Source of the DNA: a virus | DNA length: 29,233 nt | Strand: one strand, 5' to 3' | IMG/VR virus record: IMGVR_UViG_3300027816_000309 | Location: 1 to 29,233 of that record | In this document: positions 973 through 9,991 of the stretch, piece by piece | Numbering within the stretch: the first letter of the stretch is position 1 | How the letters are laid out: the number at the start of each line of letters is the position of its first letter | Translations under genes and position numbers: made by a program | Notes under the pieces: generated by a model | The model's input: only the letters and a program-made list of their open reading frames with translations | What the model was told of the DNA's origin: nothing | Databases searched by the model: none

Positions 973-1131
973 ATGATGATTAAACGATTCTTGGCCGGTC
1001 TTGGCATTGCGCTTGTCACTACAGGAGCATGGGCGCAATGTTCAACGCATACCATTTGGTCTAACAGTCGGGTTGTGACATGCACGACATGCTGTTATTA
1101 TGGAGGAAATTGCACTACTAATTGCTTCTAA
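973..1131 (+). CDS. Cys-rich exported micro-protein
   Basis: A 52-residue ORF, preceded by GAAAGGAACC as RBS. It begins MMIKRF followed by a hydrophobic stretch and AWA-QC, a good Sec signal peptide with a signal peptidase I-like site after residue 21. The mature part of about 31 residues holds six cysteines (C23, C37, C40, C41, C47, C51). There is no lipobox, because the residue before C23 is Gln. A small oxidised periplasmic or surface peptide is the likely product. I recognise no family. Its last codons (GGNCTTNCF, stop) recur in recoded form after the HNH gene at 1577-1606, so the 3' end of this gene appears to be the insertion point of that element. Confidence 0.65.
   Translation: MMIKRFLAGLGIALVTTGAWAQCSTHTIWSNSRVVTCTTCCYYGGNCTTNCF
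1102..1131 (+). repeat. Recoded direct repeat flanking the HNH gene, upstream copy
   Basis: The codons for G-G-N-C-T-T-N-C-F-stop end the Cys-rich gene. They match the downstream copy at 1577-1606. Over the eight codons shared by G-N-C-T-T-N-C plus the aromatic residue, the changes are third-position and synonymous except Phe to Tyr; the stop changes from TAA to TGA. Confidence 0.7.
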
Positions 1132-1577
1132 TGTCAAAAACGTACTTTGCGGACCTTAGAGTCAAGAGAAAAGAGCTTGGCCTGTGTTTATCTTGTGGAA
1201 AACACCCAGCACCATGCGATTCCTGTAGATCGAGAAATCGAGAATACATGCGCCGCAAAAGAGCCGGGATTCCTGCTGAAGAAAAAACACGGCAATGGCA
1301 TTCCAAACGGCACTATTACCTAAAGTACAAATTTGGCATTACAGAGCAGCAATATGATGAAATGCTAAAAACGCAAAATTATTGTTGCGCCATTTGCAAA
1401 TCAACAACTTCTGGAGATAAAAGATCAACAAGGCTTTCTATTGACCATTGCCACAAAAGCGGGGAAATTAGAGGGCTTCTTTGTTCATCTTGCAATAAAG
1501 CCATAGGCTTATTAAAAGATTCTCCAGATTTATTGCGTTCTGCTATTGGTTATTTAATAAAACACGCCATGAAATGA
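1131..1577 (+). CDS. HNH endonuclease, recombination endonuclease VII family
   Basis: A 148-residue Zn-binding nuclease. The C-terminal half carries CAIC (C86, C89), then LSIDHCHKSGEIRGLLCSSC with D105, H106, H108 and C118/C121, then N122. This is the beta-beta-alpha metal motif of T4 endonuclease VII-like and HNH homing nucleases. The N-terminus adds a second possible Zn ribbon (C19, C22, C29, C32) and a basic stretch. The ATG at 1131 overlaps the preceding stop (TAATG). A TTG at 1122 is an alternative start. Two sampled 60-base stretches inside the gene are 37% and 30% G+C, against 52-55% in flanking genes. Together with the duplicated flank this suggests a recently acquired mobile gene. 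It may be a homing endonuclease or a resolvase-like enzyme; homing is favoured by the insertion pattern. Confidence 0.88.
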   Translation: MSKTYFADLRVKRKELGLCLSCGKHPAPCDSCRSRNREYMRRKRAGIPAEEKTRQWHSKRHYYLKYKFGITEQQYDEMLKTQNYCCAICKSTTSGDKRSTRLSIDHCHKSGEIRGLLCSSCNKAIGLLKDSPDLLRSAIGYLIKHAMK

Positions 1578-1606
1578 ATGGCAATTGCACAACCAACTGT
1601 TATTGA
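1577..1606 (+). repeat. Recoded direct repeat flanking the HNH gene, downstream copy (displaced gene end)
   Basis: Read in frame this encodes N-G-N-C-T-T-N-C-Y-stop, repeating the end of the Cys-rich micro-protein about 470 bases upstream. It begins at the last base of the HNH stop codon. It is best read as the displaced original 3' end of the Cys-rich gene, or its donor-derived replacement. The following 1607-1702 is a roughly 95-base stretch with no gene that I can support. Confidence 0.65.
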
Positions 1607-2853: not shown

Positions 2854-3353
2854 TTCTTAGACCAGTTGCGAGAACCAAACCAGAAGCCAATAATGCCGCC
2901 CAGCATTGCCATTTCGTCGCTGGAAAAAATCAAATCCGAATATTTGACAATATCGTCGATGCTTTTAATCATCTCGGGATGTTGCCAAAGATAAAACGCC
3001 AGGAATCCGTTGATAAGAATCAACTCAATGACAAACAGATATGTCACTGTCGGGCGAACCGTTCCGATGTAATTTGCCACCCAGGTGCTGGCCTTGTCCA
3101 AAATCTTTTCGTCGTGCTTTAGCGCCGCTTCCGTCATCTGCGCTTCAGTCTGCATCATCACCTGATCGGTGCGGATTTCCTCGATGCGCTGCTGCGCTGC
3201 ATACCCTTGCGCTGCCATTGCTAGTTCACGCTCGTTTTGCAATCGAGCCAAAGCCAATTCGTGTTTTTGGTCGCTTTTGTTTTGGAAGAATTCAAGCAGC
3301 TTTGGCAGGCCACTGATAAGCAAGCCCCCAAGGGTAGAAATGAGTGACAGCAT
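2850..3353 (-). CDS. Holin, GTA-type 3-TM family
   Basis: A 167-residue inner membrane protein that times lysis. An N-terminal hydrophobic segment (about 5-22) is followed by a long charged helix (about 25-90, rich in Glu/Gln/Lys), a strong TM segment TVTYLFVIELILINGFLAFY (102-121) and a short C-terminal hydrophobic segment ending GFWFGSRNW. The VRPTVTY entry and the C-terminal GFWFGSR are characteristic of the gene-transfer-agent 3-TM holin family. It overlaps the lysozyme by 4 bases and the gene before it by 1 base, forming a compact lysis cassette. Confidence 0.85.
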   Translation of the reverse strand: MLSLISTLGGLLISGLPKLLEFFQNKSDQKHELALARLQNERELAMAAQGYAAQQRIEEIRTDQVMMQTEAQMTEAALKHDEKILDKASTWVANYIGTVRPTVTYLFVIELILINGFLAFYLWQHPEMIKSIDDIVKYSDLIFSSDEMAMLGGIIGFWFGSRNWSKK

Positions 3354-4049: not shown

Positions 4050-4487
4050 TCAAAATTCTGAGATTGCTTTTGCTACGATTTCAGGCTCTACAAAAATCTC
4101 GCTGCGGTGCGGCAAATATTCCCACCAAAGGAACTGATTAACAGCCAAATGATCCCGGCTTTTCAACAAGTTGACATTTTCGGGATGCCCAAAAATTAGC
4201 GGGTCAGACACCGACCAAAGAACAATGCCCTTTTTCCCTTCGTCCCAGGCCAAGTGCTGAAAGAAGCTGTCGCAGGATACCCAAGTTTTGCAGTCTTGCA
4301 ACAATTGACGCAGTGCAGCAATTGACAGGTTTTTGCGGAAATCTGGCACTAACTGCTGCTCACCTTCGATGCCAACCTGAATGATTGGCTCATCAATCAT
4401 GGCAATCAATTCTTGCCAGTAAGGGTAATTTTTCGGATTGTTGTTGCCGCTTTTGAGCCGCTGCGCGTAGGGGCTGATGACGATCAT
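4050..4487 (-). CDS. GT9-like glycosyltransferase, C-terminal half (separate gene)
   Basis: A 145-residue protein containing only the C-terminal Rossmann half of a heptosyltransferase-type (GT-B, family 9) enzyme. It opens directly with MIVISPYAQRL. PIIQVGIEGEQ, the DSFFQHLAWDEGKKGIVLW element (equivalent to the family's D-x-HLA donor-site region) and SDPLIFGHPENVNLL follow. The matching N-terminal half is fused to the end of the upstream GT2 gene, which ends in an ATGA overlap with this start (4484-4487). The two halves would therefore be made by coupled translation and assemble as two subunits. The A-frame to B-frame step is -1, but no slippery heptamer is visible at the junction. Confidence 0.75.
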   Translation of the reverse strand: MIVISPYAQRLKSGNNNPKNYPYWQELIAMIDEPIIQVGIEGEQQLVPDFRKNLSIAALRQLLQDCKTWVSCDSFFQHLAWDEGKKGIVLWSVSDPLIFGHPENVNLLKSRDHLAVNQFLWWEYLPHRSEIFVEPEIVAKAISEF

Positions 4488-5452
4488 AGGTACAGTTTCC
4501 GAAATGCGCTCTCAAGGCTTCCTTGCCACTTCCATGCATCCATCTTGCCGTAGATGTTCCATTGGTCAACGCTGCCAAACAATGCCTGGGCTTCCGCAAT
4601 TGACCGCCCAGGAACGATTTCCGGGTAACAGGTAAACACCACCGGATTTTTTATCTCGGGCAGGACATGACTGAAAACAACATGGTCGCCCATGCCGCAG
4701 TTAAGAACAACAATTGTGCTGTCCCGATAGTGCAGGAAATTGCGAAATATTTGCTCGTCCTGCTCGTACAGCTTTTGGTTTGTCTCGCTTCTGATGCCGC
4801 CTTGCGGGTTTTTTAGATGCCATGTGACCGCATCGGAAACCAGCAACACCCGATAGCCCTTTTCGTACAAGCCCCAGGTAAACAGCGTTTCTTCCCGGTG
4901 AGCCACCCTTGACAGGCCCGTGTTGTAATCATGGATGCCAGCACGGTAAAGAAATGTGCAATGCAGATGCTCGACTTCCTGCATATGCCTGATGTATGAC
5001 CATTGAATGTTCGGCTCGGAATCAATCCGTTCGATTACGCCCGTAGCTTTAATTGGCATTGGATCAAATGGCTTGGTCAGCACAGACCCGCCAATTGCGC
5101 CAACATTGTCGGCAATCCACTTGCTCAAGTTTGCCAACACGTTTGGTTCTGGGATAGCGTCATCATCAACACGCCAAACCCAATCAAAACCCATTCGGTT
5201 TGCAATCTGGTGGTTGTGGTGCTGGCCTTTTTTGCCTGCAAACAACCATTCCCACGGGATTTTTTTTTCGTCTAGGATTTGGAAAAAGTGCGAATAGATC
5301 AAATCCGTTCGCACATCCACCGGCTCATCGTTGTCATCAAAGATGACCAGCTTATCCACTGGTCGCGTCTGCATGATGATGGCTTGCAAGGCCAGGGGCA
5401 AGGTGCTGTGATAGCGCCCACGGGTTGAGATTGAGCAAAGAATTTTAGTCAT
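4484..5452 (-). CDS. GT2 glycosyltransferase fused to N-terminal half of a GT9 domain
   Basis: A 322-residue protein. Residues 1-240 are a GT-A (family 2-like) glycosyltransferase: an N-terminal nucleotide-binding strand (LCSISTRGR), the metal-binding triad WVWRVDDDA (D96-D98), an HREE acidic pair (185-188) typical of the catalytic-base region, and a later TWH. Residues 245-322 start a new Rossmann domain, TIVVLNCGMGDHVVF, resembling the GxGD N-terminus of GT9 enzymes, and stop just where its second half should begin. That second half is the downstream gene. It overlaps the upstream GT2-methyltransferase gene by 8 bases. The substrate is unknown: a phage fibre or a host surface sugar is possible. 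Confidence 0.85.
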   Translation of the reverse strand: MTKILCSISTRGRYHSTLPLALQAIIMQTRPVDKLVIFDDNDEPVDVRTDLIYSHFFQILDEKKIPWEWLFAGKKGQHHNHQIANRMGFDWVWRVDDDAIPEPNVLANLSKWIADNVGAIGGSVLTKPFDPMPIKATGVIERIDSEPNIQWSYIRHMQEVEHLHCTFLYRAGIHDYNTGLSRVAHREETLFTWGLYEKGYRVLLVSDAVTWHLKNPQGGIRSETNQKLYEQDEQIFRNFLHYRDSTIVVLNCGMGDHVVFSHVLPEIKNPVVFTCYPEIVPGRSIAEAQALFGSVDQWNIYGKMDAWKWQGSLESAFRKLYL

Positions 5453-6728
5453 TGCTCCACCTGCAAAGCATTAGGTTTGCTCGGTTGTTTTCATCAATGA
5501 CCTGGGGCTTATCGCTGATGTGGCCTGCCTCATTGATGTACGCAAACTCAAAGCCAGAGAAATGGCTTTCATTTAGCCCATGCAGCTTGTGATGATGACC
5601 CCAAAAGCCCGGAGGCTCATTTAGCGGAACCGTTATCAACAACCGCCTGCAATTACGCTTCAATCTCTCGACAATCTCAAGCCCATTGTCCAGATGCTCA
5701 ATGACTTCAAATGCAATGATCGAATCGTAATGCTCCAGGCCAAATTTGTTTATGTCTGCGTTGACAAATTTACCTTGCCATCCTTGCTCCTGCGCCACTT
5801 CAATGATGACAGGATCGTAATCTAGGCCCGTGTAATCAATGTCGCCAAAGAACTGCCGCCCGTAGCCTGTTGAGCAGCCAATCTCTAAGATTTTTTGCCC
5901 AACGATGTTTTGTGCCGCCCATTGATATCGAGTGGCTTCCCTTGGAAAAACGGGATCATCTTTAAGAAACACCGCCCGTTCGTAATCGTTGGACAGCTTC
6001 CATTTGTACCATTCAGGGTTGTATTTTTTTGCCAGCTTTAAAGTGTTGCCATCGAACACTTTTTGCCAATCCTTGACCAGATTGGGATCGTGCATCGTGC
6101 CTTCGCCCTTGTGGTAGATCGGAAACCAGCCAACATATTGCGAACCCTCTAAACGCTTTTCCGTTGCCTCATAAATCCTATAACCAGCTTTTTCGGCTCT
6201 GATGCAAAAATCTATGTCCTCACTGCCGCCGATGCCGTAGCTTTCATCCAGTAGGCCCACGGTATCAAAAACGTGCCGATCAATCATTACGCAAAAGAAA
6301 ATTGCAAAGTCTTGACCCGCCGCCTCAGATCGGCTTTTGATGACACAAGAAATGCCGCAATCCGCATGGTCAAAAAATGGCTTGTTAAATAGATCAAGCC
6401 ATTGATTTTTCTTTTGCTCAAGAAAAACTGTGTCGTTGTTTAACAGGATCAGCGTCTGTCCCGTTGATGCTTTGATCCCCTCATTGGTCGCTTTAGCGTA
6501 GCCCAATGGAAGATCGTTCCAGACAATCTTTAAGTTTTCTGCAAAACCGATTGAATCGAACTTGTGCCGCAACGATTGCAAATACCATTGCGTTTCATCG
6601 GTGCATCCGTTGGCAGAAATGACCAACTGAACATTGCTCATGTCCGTCCATTTAAAAATGGATTCGATGCAGGGTTTAAGGTATTTGTCGCAATTGTTGT
6701 ATGTCGGTATAACTATGCTGTAGTTCAT
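5445..6728 (-). CDS. GT2 glycosyltransferase - SAM methyltransferase fusion
   Basis: A 427-residue bifunctional protein. Residues 1-230 are a family 2 glycosyltransferase (MNYSIVIPTYNNC start; NND at 97-99 as the metal site; GGSEDIDFCIRAEKAGY near 168-183 with the E-D acceptor/base pair). Residues 275-427 form a class I SAM methyltransferase (motif I LEIGCSTGYG at 281-290, LDYD at 302-305, motif IV FEVIEHLDN at 340-348, then a His-rich WGHHHKLHGLN). Such fusions often add and O-methylate a sugar. The ATG at 6728 sits in an ATGA overlap with the fibre stop and opens the first GT2 beta strand. The longer frame to 6788 would only read 20 residues inside the fibre gene and is rejected. Confidence 0.88.
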   Translation of the reverse strand: MNYSIVIPTYNNCDKYLKPCIESIFKWTDMSNVQLVISANGCTDETQWYLQSLRHKFDSIGFAENLKIVWNDLPLGYAKATNEGIKASTGQTLILLNNDTVFLEQKKNQWLDLFNKPFFDHADCGISCVIKSRSEAAGQDFAIFFCVMIDRHVFDTVGLLDESYGIGGSEDIDFCIRAEKAGYRIYEATEKRLEGSQYVGWFPIYHKGEGTMHDPNLVKDWQKVFDGNTLKLAKKYNPEWYKWKLSNDYERAVFLKDDPVFPREATRYQWAAQNIVGQKILEIGCSTGYGRQFFGDIDYTGLDYDPVIIEVAQEQGWQGKFVNADINKFGLEHYDSIIAFEVIEHLDNGLEIVERLKRNCRRLLITVPLNEPPGFWGHHHKLHGLNESHFSGFEFAYINEAGHISDKPQVIDENNRANLMLCRWSND

Positions 6729-9700
6729 CGTTTCATGTCGTTTATTGTCTGCTCCAGCATCAAGATTCGACGGCTCAACGCCACGCAAGCAACCAAAGCC
6801 GCGTTTGCGTAATTAACGCCAAGCATCCCCGAATCTGGATGTTTTTCCACCGAGTTGGGCATTACGTCCAACAACGATTGAGCAGAAACACCATCTTGCC
6901 TTAGTTCGGTGTCATATCGAGTATATGACCCAGCTTTCACACCGGCAAGTTTTTCGATCAATTGCCAATCAACATCCAGCCAGGAATGCTTTAGACGCTC
7001 ATCAGATGAACTGACATGGGACACCGCGTTCAATGCGCCTGTGCTTGGTACAAAAGACACGGGGCTTGATATGGAAACAATGGGTGTTTGATTGCTTGCA
7101 GCCGATGCTACGCCAACAACATATTGTGTCGTTGCTGTCGTGCTGGATGTTGCATTGATCGCCGTAGATGGCCCTGCCGTGCCAGTTGCACCGCTGAACC
7201 CGCTGAAGCCTGATGTTCCAGATGCGCCATTGGTTCCGTTTGTCCCAGAAAAACCAGATCGACCACTAAATCCGCTGATGCCACTAAAACCTGATGCGCC
7301 GTTTGTTCCATTAGTACCGGAAAAACCAGACGTTCCGCTAAAGCCCGAAATTCCAGACGCGCCATTTGCTCCGTTTATGCCGCTGAATCCAGACGTACCG
7401 CTAAATCCGGATGTGCCTGATGCGCCGTTCGCGCCGTTGATGCCGCTAAATCCTGATGTACCGCTAAAACCTGATGTGCCGCTGTCCCCGTTCGTGCCAT
7501 TTATGCCGCTAAAACCGCTTGTGCCAGAAAAACCAGAAATACCAGATGCACCATTGATTCCGTTGGTTCCGCTGAATCCCGATGTGCCACTAAAGCCAGA
7601 GGTTCCATTCGTACCATCGACACCGCTAAAACCAGAAAACCCAGATGCTCCATTAATGCCACTGATTCCTGAGTAACCAGAAAAACCGCTAAAGCCCGAA
7701 TCTCCATTTATGCCGTTGATTCCGCTAAAGCCTGACCAGCCGCTGATTCCAGAACCAGAATATCCCGACAAACCGCTAAAACCGCTGATGCCGCTGTCAC
7801 CAGAAAAGCCCGACCAGCCACTTACACCAGACCCGCTAAAGCCTGACGTACCGCTAAACCCACTGATGCCTGACGCGCCACTTTCTCCAGACCAGCCGCT
7901 AATGCCTGAGCCTGAGTAACCGCTAGTGCCTGACCAGCCAGAAATGCCGCTGTGCCCGCTGATGCCAGACCAGCCAGAAAATCCAGATGTTCCGCTGAAT
8001 CCCGAAATTCCTGAAAAGCCGCTAAAGCCAGAAATGCCGCTGTACCCGCTTTGGGTGTACATCACCTGGGTGGCTGTAAAGATTACACCAGGGATTGATG
8101 GGCTAACAGGTGATGTGCCAGCAGGTACTGATTGAATGGAAATCTGAGTACTTGTAGCAGCCCAGATCAATTCATAAAAATCACCAGCAGTTATCGGAAC
8201 CACAAAATTGACGGTCATCAAACCATAACCATCAACCCCGCCATGTCGTTGTTGGATGCTTAACCGTGAATCACTGGCAGGCACATCACCCGTGCTGCCG
8301 CTGTCGTTTTTACGCAGCCAAACATTTACATCATGAATTTGGGTATCGGTGTTTACAAACTGAATGGAAAAGGTCAGGCTATAAACGCCGCTGTTGGCAA
8401 ACGTAACCCGCGAACCAGACACCACCGTAACGCCGGTGTTGCCAGCATCAAAGCTGTTAAAGGTAATTTCGTAAGCCGTATTTGCAGCCGCCGCCGTTTG
8501 ATCGGTGGTGTCCCAAAAGGAACCCCAATTGCCGATTGCACCACCAGCACCAACAGCGCCCGAATATCCGCTGTAACCGCTGTAACCGCTGATGCCTTGC
8601 GTAACAGCAAGGGCCAGCAATTCATTATTAGAAAAGCCAGTTGTGCCTGTGCCGCCAGACGAAACTAAGGTGACGGGATATGTCCAGTAGCTTGTTGGTG
8701 ATGCGGGATTCGTATTTGTCGGGGTTCCCGAAACTTGCCAAACCTGATAGTTTGCGCTTGCTGTTTGTGATTGGATGGTGAAATTTTGCCCAGCTTTAAT
8801 CAACGCCAGAAAAATATCAACGTCAACATTTGTATCAGTCAGATGGCTGACGTTAATAGATGTTGCGCTGGTTTGGGTTGCGTTGTTCCAAAGCAAATCC
8901 CCATCTGTCGGATAGCCCGATGTGATGGTGGTATTTGCCCTGTACAGGAAAAAGTTGGATGACGTTCCCGGTGTTCCGCTGTAACCGCTAAAACCAGAAA
9001 ATCCACTAAAGCCTGACCAGCCTGAAACACCGGAACCGCTAAAGCCCGACCAGCCGCTTATGCCGCTGCCGCTGTACCCGCTAAAGCCTGACCAACCGGA
9101 TTGCCCAGACCATCCACTGATTCCGGATTCGCCGCTGTATCCGGAAAGCCCCGAGAATCCGCTGTAACCGCTTAAACCAAGCCCACTAAACCCTGACCAG
9201 CCAGATGTGCCAGACCAGCCGCTAAGGCCCGATCCGCTGTACCCGCTTAGACCGCTGATTCCTGAGTAACCGCTAATGCCAGACCAGCCCGACAAGCCGC
9301 TTTCGCCCGAATACCCACTGATCCCGCTGTGCCCAGATGCACCGCTAAATCCAGACGTTCCGCTAAAGCCCGATTGGCCGCTTTGACCTGACAGACCAGA
9401 TGTGCCAGAAAAGCCGCTGAACCCGGATTGACCAGAAAACCCGCTTGCGCCTGACCAACCACTGACACCCGAGCCGCTGTAACCGGAAATGCCCGACCAC
9501 CCGCTTTGACCACTGAATCCCGATATGCCTTCCAGGCCAGAAAATCCGCTGTAACCGGAAATGCCCGAGAATCCAGATTGACCAATTGCGCCGCTGTAAC
9601 CCGATGTTCCGCTTGCGCCAGACCAGCCGCTTATGCCTGAGCCAGAAAAGCCAGACAGGCCAGATACACCGGAAAAGCCCGACAAACCAGAGCCACCGCT

Positions 9701-9991
9701 AAAGCCCGACATGCCGCTAAAGCCCGACAAGCCAAGACCGGAATAACCGGAAAAGCCTGAAAAGCCAGATGCGCCAGAGCCGCCAGGGCCAGAATACCCA
9801 GAAAAGCCGCTGTACCCAGACGTACCGCTTGAGCCTGCAACGCCTCGGTTAATGTTGATGTTTTGCCGCGCTGTCGGAACAACCTGAACCGTTAGATTCG
9901 TGCCGCTTTGAATCGACGCGGTGATGTTGTTCCCATCCTGAACATTGACTGTCGTATTGTTCGGAACGGCTTGAACGGTAATGTTCGCCAT
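6725..9991 (-). CDS. Long Gly-X-Ser repeat tail fibre with C-terminal S74 chaperone
   Basis: A 1088-residue fibre. Residues 1-50 are a unique virion-attachment end. From about 52 to 335 and again about 647 to 945, Gly occurs every third residue in Gly-X-Ser triplets, with X mostly Phe, Tyr, Trp, Ile, Leu or Thr. The later block also has N-G-T/I/A-N-G variants. Between them lie two globular parts: about 340-465 and a jelly-roll, C1q/TNF-like stretch at about 478-645 (GSFWDTTDQTA, GVYSLTFSIQF). The last 95 residues start at SDERLK and contain VSAQSL and VNYANAALVAC, hallmarks of the Peptidase_S74 endosialidase-type self-cleaving trimerisation chaperone. RBS AAGGGG precedes the start. The stop overlaps the GT2-methyltransferase start (ATGA). 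Confidence 0.9.
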   Translation of the reverse strand: MANITVQAVPNNTTVNVQDGNNITASIQSGTNLTVQVVPTARQNININRGVAGSSGTSGYSGFSGYSGPGGSGASGFSGFSGYSGLGLSGFSGMSGFSGGSGLSGFSGVSGLSGFSGSGISGWSGASGTSGYSGAIGQSGFSGISGYSGFSGLEGISGFSGQSGWSGISGYSGSGVSGWSGASGFSGQSGFSGFSGTSGLSGQSGQSGFSGTSGFSGASGHSGISGYSGESGLSGWSGISGYSGISGLSGYSGSGLSGWSGTSGWSGFSGLGLSGYSGFSGLSGYSGESGISGWSGQSGWSGFSGYSGSGISGWSGFSGSGVSGWSGFSGFSGFSGYSGTPGTSSNFFLYRANTTITSGYPTDGDLLWNNATQTSATSINVSHLTDTNVDVDIFLALIKAGQNFTIQSQTASANYQVWQVSGTPTNTNPASPTSYWTYPVTLVSSGGTGTTGFSNNELLALAVTQGISGYSGYSGYSGAVGAGGAIGNWGSFWDTTDQTAAAANTAYEITFNSFDAGNTGVTVVSGSRVTFANSGVYSLTFSIQFVNTDTQIHDVNVWLRKNDSGSTGDVPASDSRLSIQQRHGGVDGYGLMTVNFVVPITAGDFYELIWAATSTQISIQSVPAGTSPVSPSIPGVIFTATQVMYTQSGYSGISGFSGFSGISGFSGTSGFSGWSGISGHSGISGWSGTSGYSGSGISGWSGESGASGISGFSGTSGFSGSGVSGWSGFSGDSGISGFSGLSGYSGSGISGWSGFSGINGINGDSGFSGFSGYSGISGINGASGFSGFSGVDGTNGTSGFSGTSGFSGTNGINGASGISGFSGTSGFSGINGTNGDSGTSGFSGTSGFSGINGANGASGTSGFSGTSGFSGINGANGASGISGFSGTSGFSGTNGTNGASGFSGISGFSGRSGFSGTNGTNGASGTSGFSGFSGATGTAGPSTAINATSSTTATTQYVVGVASAASNQTPIVSISSPVSFVPSTGALNAVSHVSSSDERLKHSWLDVDWQLIEKLAGVKAGSYTRYDTELRQDGVSAQSLLDVMPNSVEKHPDSGMLGVNYANAALVACVALSRRILMLEQTINDMKR

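Follow-up and report, generated by a model that had tools for sequence, protein, structure and literature searches.

The nuclease gene near the left end of a viral sequence from IMG/VR appears to belong to a free-standing homing element of ~540 bp, in which a foreign 3′ end for the preceding gene is combined with an Endonuclease VII (Endo VII)-type endonuclease that begins on an overlapping start codon. We give this reading a probability of roughly 0.7. The window is the whole stretch of DNA that was analysed, the IMG/VR virus record IMGVR_UViG_3300027816_000309, with a length of 29,233 bases. A second version of the element is present in another contig, L006 (IMGVR_UViG_3300035188_000427). 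The left end of the window is laid out as follows:

84-698, + strand: YqaJ-type exonuclease (YqaJ/RecE-like), assigned by a Pfam match
695-964, + strand: small gene with an acidic tail, preceding the Cys-rich one; its counterparts in relatives are recognised by position and a similar DD...PF* C-terminus
976-1131, + strand: Cys-rich gene, 51 codons, a hybrid of a native 5′ part and an imported 3′ part, from comparison with relatives
1054-1131, + strand: imported 3′ end of the Cys-rich gene, which travels with the nuclease and has one extra Gly codon, from the window and L006 compared
1105-1131, + strand: upstream, in-gene recoded copy, GNCTTNCF-stop, read directly
1131-1577, + strand: Endo VII-type nuclease, 148 aa, from Pfam, PHROG, invariant residues, model and PDB matches
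1580-1606, + strand: native gene end, GNCTTNCY-stop, displaced and no longer within a full-length Cys-rich gene, from comparison with relatives
1612-1678, + strand: native 3′ flank with a conserved RNA-like element, which marks the native junction and lies outside the cassette, from relatives and folding

Further small genes follow the nuclease on the + strand. The Cys-rich gene starts at an ATG at 976 that is common to its relatives, and its 51-aa product looks secreted, judging by its signal-peptide-like start. This protein has no match in Pfam or PHROG and no relative among the named phages of INPHARED, where DNA matches are weak only.

The two gene ends can be read directly. The upstream end, GGA AAT TGC ACT ACT AAT TGC TTC TAA, closes the Cys-rich gene at 1105-1131, and the nuclease ATG (1131-1133) overlaps its stop codon (TAATG), an arrangement that would allow translation of the two genes to be coupled. 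The downstream end, GGC AAT TGC ACA ACC AAC TGT TAT TGA, occupies 1580-1606, two bases past the nuclease stop (TGA, 1575-1577). As the original prediction had it, both encode the same tail with changes mostly at third positions: they differ at 8/27 nt, of which six are third positions, including that of the F/Y codon, one is the second position of this codon and one is the TAA/TGA difference. Chance similarity is ruled out by control loci, since a stop-anchored peptide comparison scores 49 and 52 in the two contexts of the Cys-rich gene, whereas other Endo VII loci score no higher than 19; none of the other Endo VII loci scanned has a duplicated end of its upstream gene.

Sequence evidence places the nuclease in the Endo VII family. 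It matches Pfam PF02945 (Endonuclease_7) with an E-value of 5.6e-24 and 84.3 bits, against a curated cut-off of 23.6, as well as PHROG 2914 (Endonuclease_7). The residues described as essential for the Endo VII motif (PMC6083498), i.e. CX2-4C, D-H-x-H, R, CX2C and N, are all present, and C86, C89, D105, H106, H108, R114, C118, C121 and N122 are invariant in 22 nuclease sequences. The catalytic motif (CAIC / DHCH / CSSCN) is preceded by basic helices and by an N-terminal C-x2-C ... C-x2-C (residues 18-31) that is a candidate second zinc site. A profile search of the PDB returned Hpy99I (E 1e-17) and T4 Endo VII (E 6e-13). The same two proteins are the top Foldseek matches to the AlphaFold model (mean pLDDT 84, pTM 0.56), with a probability of 1.00 and E-values of 3e-3 to 2e-2; the TM-scores are modest, at 0.31-0.39 over ~75 columns, and these matches are weaker than the sequence profile. 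Endonuclease_7 is the only Pfam match, with no sign of an intein/LAGLIDADG-derived nuclease, and no Rfam intron match was found in 700-2400. The element falls outside the intron- or intein-encoded class in that the Cys-rich gene is complete before the nuclease. The low G+C content that had been noticed in the nuclease gene is real, at 39.8% for the ORF versus 48.5% for the window, but uneven, with 46.7% in the first third and 36.4% in the remainder.

A search of viral contigs with the Cys-rich protein gave 43 loci. In close relatives the Cys-rich gene is joined directly to a few bases followed by GGCCGAAAG, which is the flank found 3′ of the downstream copy in the window; in more distant relatives other genes often stand behind it. 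One distant relative came from genome contigs, in a Burkholderiales MAG. A DNA pattern for the gene tail matched 112 stretches, which reduce to 79 distinct contexts, and 76 of the 79 lie within a full uninterrupted gene. The exceptions are the window type, L006 and L296, an unrelated AT-rich contig in which the motif probably occurs by chance; on its reverse strand, at ~790-831, a 14-codon ORF, MKLISLGNCTTNCF, stands behind a AAAAGGAG site and has the same C-terminal motif.

These empty sites identify the native end. The stranded end of L006 is identical over 27/27 nt to the end of the uninterrupted gene in the empty-site relative L009, and the downstream copy is followed by the same flank as in close empty relatives; it is the displaced native end. 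The stranded end of the window has no exact empty match, its nearest empty ends differing at 3/27, and no exact pre-insertion genome for the window was found among the relatives; the pre-insertion gene would be expected to end GGCAATTGCACAACCAACTGTTATTGATTTTTGGGCC. The original prediction had named, as support for displacement, an uninterrupted relative whose gene finishes like the downstream copy; these loci have such ends, followed by the same 3′ flank, and no nuclease-free relative was found with both copies, the arrangement that it had named as contrary evidence. The presence and absence of the nuclease at one site, with empty-site alleles found, is as expected of homing. That the downstream copy has a function of its own, whether it encodes a short leader peptide, belongs to an overlapping ORF (MAIAQPTVIDFWAESCCW, ATG at 1578) or contributes to the RNA element that follows it, seems very unlikely to us. 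Its ATG does meet the nuclease stop codon (TGAATG) and opens an 18-codon frame, but in L006 this frame changes sequence past MAIAQ, and with 27 nt matching the uninterrupted end of a relative, a displaced remnant suffices as explanation.

The extent of the cassette follows from comparing the window with L006. Without gaps, the nuclease genes are 98.7% identical, and 77/80 nt agree at 1051-1130. The nearest flanking mismatches are 1050 and 1053 on the left and 1594 on the right; beyond these, identity is 91% (965-1050) and 77% (1595-1620), and lower further out. Because identity drops outside these positions, the moving unit is ~1054-1593 (~540 bp). It takes in ~78 nt from the 3′ end of the Cys-rich gene, then the nuclease, and no more than ~14 nt of the displaced end. 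The duplicated end had been placed within 1102-1606; that duplication stands, but the shared cassette is larger and starts inside the Cys-rich gene at ~1054. Likewise, a recoded end does arrive with the nuclease, but the imported tract is longer than nine codons, covering ~78 nt and an additional Gly codon: it reads CYYGGNC, one Gly codon more than the CYFGNC of most close empty relatives (or CYYGNC). Four more contigs, each from a different dataset, have the window-type arrangement, and L006 comes from a fifth dataset; the elements are known in two phage backgrounds only. As every sequence is metagenomic, the junctions might in principle be assembly chimeras, a possibility of negligible weight that is ruled out by independent assemblies: the same junctions occur in the window and the four contigs, and the right junction occurs in L006 with a different flank.

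The Cys-rich gene is correspondingly a hybrid. Over codons 1-28 it shares 92-96% identity with the nearest empty relatives, and over the remainder only 64-74% with the same relatives (Fisher p down to 8e-7). Among natural sequences, the imported part comes closest to L027/L014 (79-82%), whose 5′ part is only 58-62% identical. In a tree of upstream DNA plus codons 1-28, the window groups with L017 and L006 with L012/L009/L013, and an AU test on 946 upstream columns rejects a clade of window and L006 (p 6e-52). Downstream, the window groups with L008 and L006 lies on a long branch, with the same clade rejected on 439 columns (p 4e-49). The gene 3′ end alone joins the two, with support of 97/98 on 72 columns. 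From these trees and the L006/L009 identity, it follows that the upstream copy arrived together with the nuclease, making the host gene whole again as a hybrid, and that the downstream copy is native. The element has thus entered different backgrounds with a co-converted flank, in the window and in L006, a further mark of homing. The near-identical block in two backgrounds, together with the AU tests, bears out the earlier proposal that the nuclease is mobile and came with its own gene end, and the full-length, hybrid Cys-rich gene ahead of it agrees with the proposal that the host protein stays intact.

The trees also dispose of a local origin of the duplicate, in which insertion of the nuclease duplicated the resident end in tandem and the copies then drifted synonymously. 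Such an event would yield the same peptide from both copies, as seen. It is nevertheless extremely improbable and is ruled out by copy-to-background matches and by the AU tests: the upstream copies are alike across phages, the downstream copies match their own backgrounds (L006 = L009, 27/27), and the imported tract reaches ~50 nt further upstream, past the duplicated part.

The degree of recoding is unexceptional. Upstream and downstream ends differ at 8/27 (window) and 5/27 (L006), within the ordinary range of 1-11 among empty ends. By these sequence counts, the recoding is no larger than the ordinary divergence in the Cys-rich gene family, and selection for protection is not required to account for it. 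A codon that seemed private to the cassettes (the second Asn, AAT in both and AAC in all close relatives) was discarded as a marker, as three distant relatives also have AAT.

The 3′ half of the gene is mosaic in nuclease-free relatives too. Their mean pairwise divergence is 6-14% over codons 1-30, ~25% over codons 26-40 and 15-17% towards the end. In L009/L012, L012/L013, L009/L013 and L008/L013 the 3′ part of the gene diverges more than the ~700 nt upstream flank, with p 4e-5 to 2e-3 for four pairs that were picked after inspection and are non-independent. The 3′ part of L012 resembles L020/L021, though L012 and L020 differ by ~23% in their upstream DNA. A faster-diverging 3′ part is the signature reported for FBA1 under repeated homing of WHO elements (PMC7282813), but it could also reflect nuclease-independent local recombination or uneven constraint.

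This mosaicism bears on whether homing is needed at all. Ordinary homologous recombination between co-infecting phages might have transferred the cassette passively, the nuclease being inactive at this site and the recoding being donor/recipient divergence. The window encodes a YqaJ-type recombinase (84-698), the recoding is within normal family divergence, and the 3′ end is mosaic without a nuclease, all of which would suit passive transfer. We consider it unlikely all the same, since the same sharp right junction seen twice and a short, nuclease-centred cassette are what homing predicts, and plain recombination leaves the duplicated gene end flanking the nuclease unexplained.

Under the homing reading, two phages would infect one cell and the nuclease would cut the 3′ half of the uninterrupted Cys-rich gene; from the cassette boundaries, the cut is predicted to fall somewhere from codon ~29 to codon ~48 of the native sequence. 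Repair of the break from the donor copy, driven by this cutting, would leave the recipient with its own 5′ part and the donor's 3′ part and nuclease. Its old 3′ end would be shifted downstream, where it could supply the homology on the right when the element moves again. The host protein would remain whole, and the rebuilt end would probably resist the nuclease. The recoding could be of use in three ways: keeping the protein whole, denying the nuclease its site and reducing deletion between direct repeats.

Homing of this kind is known outside phages. WHO elements at FBA1 of Torulaspora/Lachancea (Coughlan et al. 2020, eLife, PMC7282813) have the same order of chimeric full-length gene, nuclease and displaced 3′ fragment that we find in the window and L006. 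Like the phage element, they bring a host gene 3′ end, the 3′ part of their host gene is hypervariable, and their nuclease has a zinc-finger-like part (PMC7282813). They reside in the yeast nucleus with an intein-derived nuclease, whereas here the setting is a phage and the nuclease is Endo VII (His-Me finger); unlike WHO, the phage element has its genes on the same strand with overlapping stop and start codons, and no clusters were seen (PMC7282813). Allele-specific cutting was shown for WHO (PMC7282813) and would be expected of the phage element. Mobile ORFs in fungal mitochondria, at atp6, atp9, cox2 and nad3 (Glomus, Beaudet et al. 2013, PMC3630166; Allomyces, Paquin et al. 1994 as related in that article), similarly place an endonuclease near the 3′ end of a gene, with a foreign, mostly synonymous C-terminal part ahead, the native end behind and a hybrid gene as the result; they differ in being organellar and in using LAGLIDADG or GIY-YIG nucleases (PMC3630166).

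Among phages, F-CphI of cyanophage S-PM2 indicates that an Endo VII-type enzyme is able to home (PMC6083498). It too is a small free-standing nuclease with a C-terminal Endo VII motif, a comparison that covers the motif and its placement, and the motif is likewise C-terminal in other Endo VII-motif proteins of this small free-standing phage type. In F-CphI, protection of the donor comes from a group I intron that lies in psbA, the target gene, and a replaced gene end plays no part (PMC6083498). T4 mobE is also a free-standing nuclease whose start codon overlaps the stop of the phage gene ahead of it (UAAUGA), and T4 free-standing homing endonucleases co-convert flanking sequence as here; the mobE type belongs to a different nuclease family, and the portion of the source that deals with it mentions no displaced duplicate of a host gene end (PMC2988022). 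In the open-access literature searched, no earlier phage case came up in which a gene end is displaced and recoded, a weak absence as most subscription journals lie outside it. Gene-end-replacing homing is a known kind, apparently undescribed in phages within the searchable literature.

If phages have such an element, of ~540 bp and with an unrelated nuclease, the strategy would seem to have arisen repeatedly, and this would explain how the two ends of one phage gene can have different histories. The element would also offer a small system for asking whether synonymous recoding confers immunity to a homing nuclease. We further put forward, tentatively and at a little under even odds, that gene-end replacement is a homing strategy of phages too, in which the Endo VII nuclease cuts native ends of the Cys-rich gene, the synonymous end that it carries is immune, and repeated rounds have left the 3′ half of this gene chimeric even where the nuclease has since been lost.

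Related arrangements occur in other contigs. The small upstream gene (695-964) has counterparts, assigned by the position and C-terminus given above, in L050-L052 and L135-L146, directly 5′ of a nuclease, a Cys-rich gene or the RNA element. In L050-L052, a 70% identical nuclease sits directly behind it with a TGATG overlap and there is no Cys-rich gene and no duplicated gene end; because this nuclease stands behind a different gene without the duplicate, the layout is not obligatory for the family. The right edge resembles the last codons of the Cys-rich gene end (AACGGTCATTGATTACGG vs AACTGCTATTGATTAACGG), and the host gene tail differs synonymously from L136 at 3/12 vs 5/240 nt (p 0.004, a comparison chosen after inspection), which is at most suggestive of the same gene-end trick. 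A Cys-rich gene stands behind the small upstream gene in L147/L149, and what follows the nuclease in L050 is like the end and flank of that Cys-rich gene. The site behind the small upstream gene may be a recurrent target, a suggestion resting on few bases.

In L144:852-976 (the contig is also L325), ATGAAAGAATGTTTTAAATGCAATGTGACTAAGCC (MKECFKCNVTKP) lies between the small upstream gene and the RNA element. MKECFKCNVTKP resembles the start of some Endo VII-type nucleases, and ATGAAAGAATGTTTTAAATGCAATGTGACTAAGCC is joined to apparent last codons of the Cys-rich gene end (GCTATTGATC); this is possibly a decayed nuclease at the same site, and no intact version was found among the relatives. At L026:3150 and L096:3150, the stop of the Cys-rich gene overlaps the start (TGATG) of another kind of small nuclease-like ORF (MYRNDKLLRAVRDAHCMNCGG...); the RNA element does not intervene, and no second gene end was seen.

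The structured RNA element behind the Cys-rich gene (1612-1678) is apparently undescribed, with no credible Rfam match. It has a GGGCC/GGCCC stem, a GAAAGC / GCRAGUA internal loop and a variable hairpin, on the plan stem - GAAAGC(GGAUG) - variable hairpin - (ACGCA)GCGAGUA - stem. A regular expression requiring a complementary outer stem gave 49 distinct matches versus 2 in control sequence; 4/6 pairs change on both sides in 19 aligned examples, and the window copy has a z-score of -3.2. The element is present in many relatives, e.g. L135:3196-3258 and 3265-3335 (in tandem), L021:3162-3220 and L257. Its loops are highly variable and modular-looking; in L107:3155-3282 the variable loop is 108 nt long and contains GTGAGTTCGAATCTCAC, resembling a tRNA T-arm.

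Elsewhere in the window, on the - strand at 6725-9991, a gene is predicted to encode a 1088-aa protein made up largely of SGxSGFSG-like, collagen-type repeats, whose C-terminal part resembles a tail-fibre chaperone domain (DERLKHSW...). Putative glycosyltransferase-like genes at 4484-6788 adjoin it.
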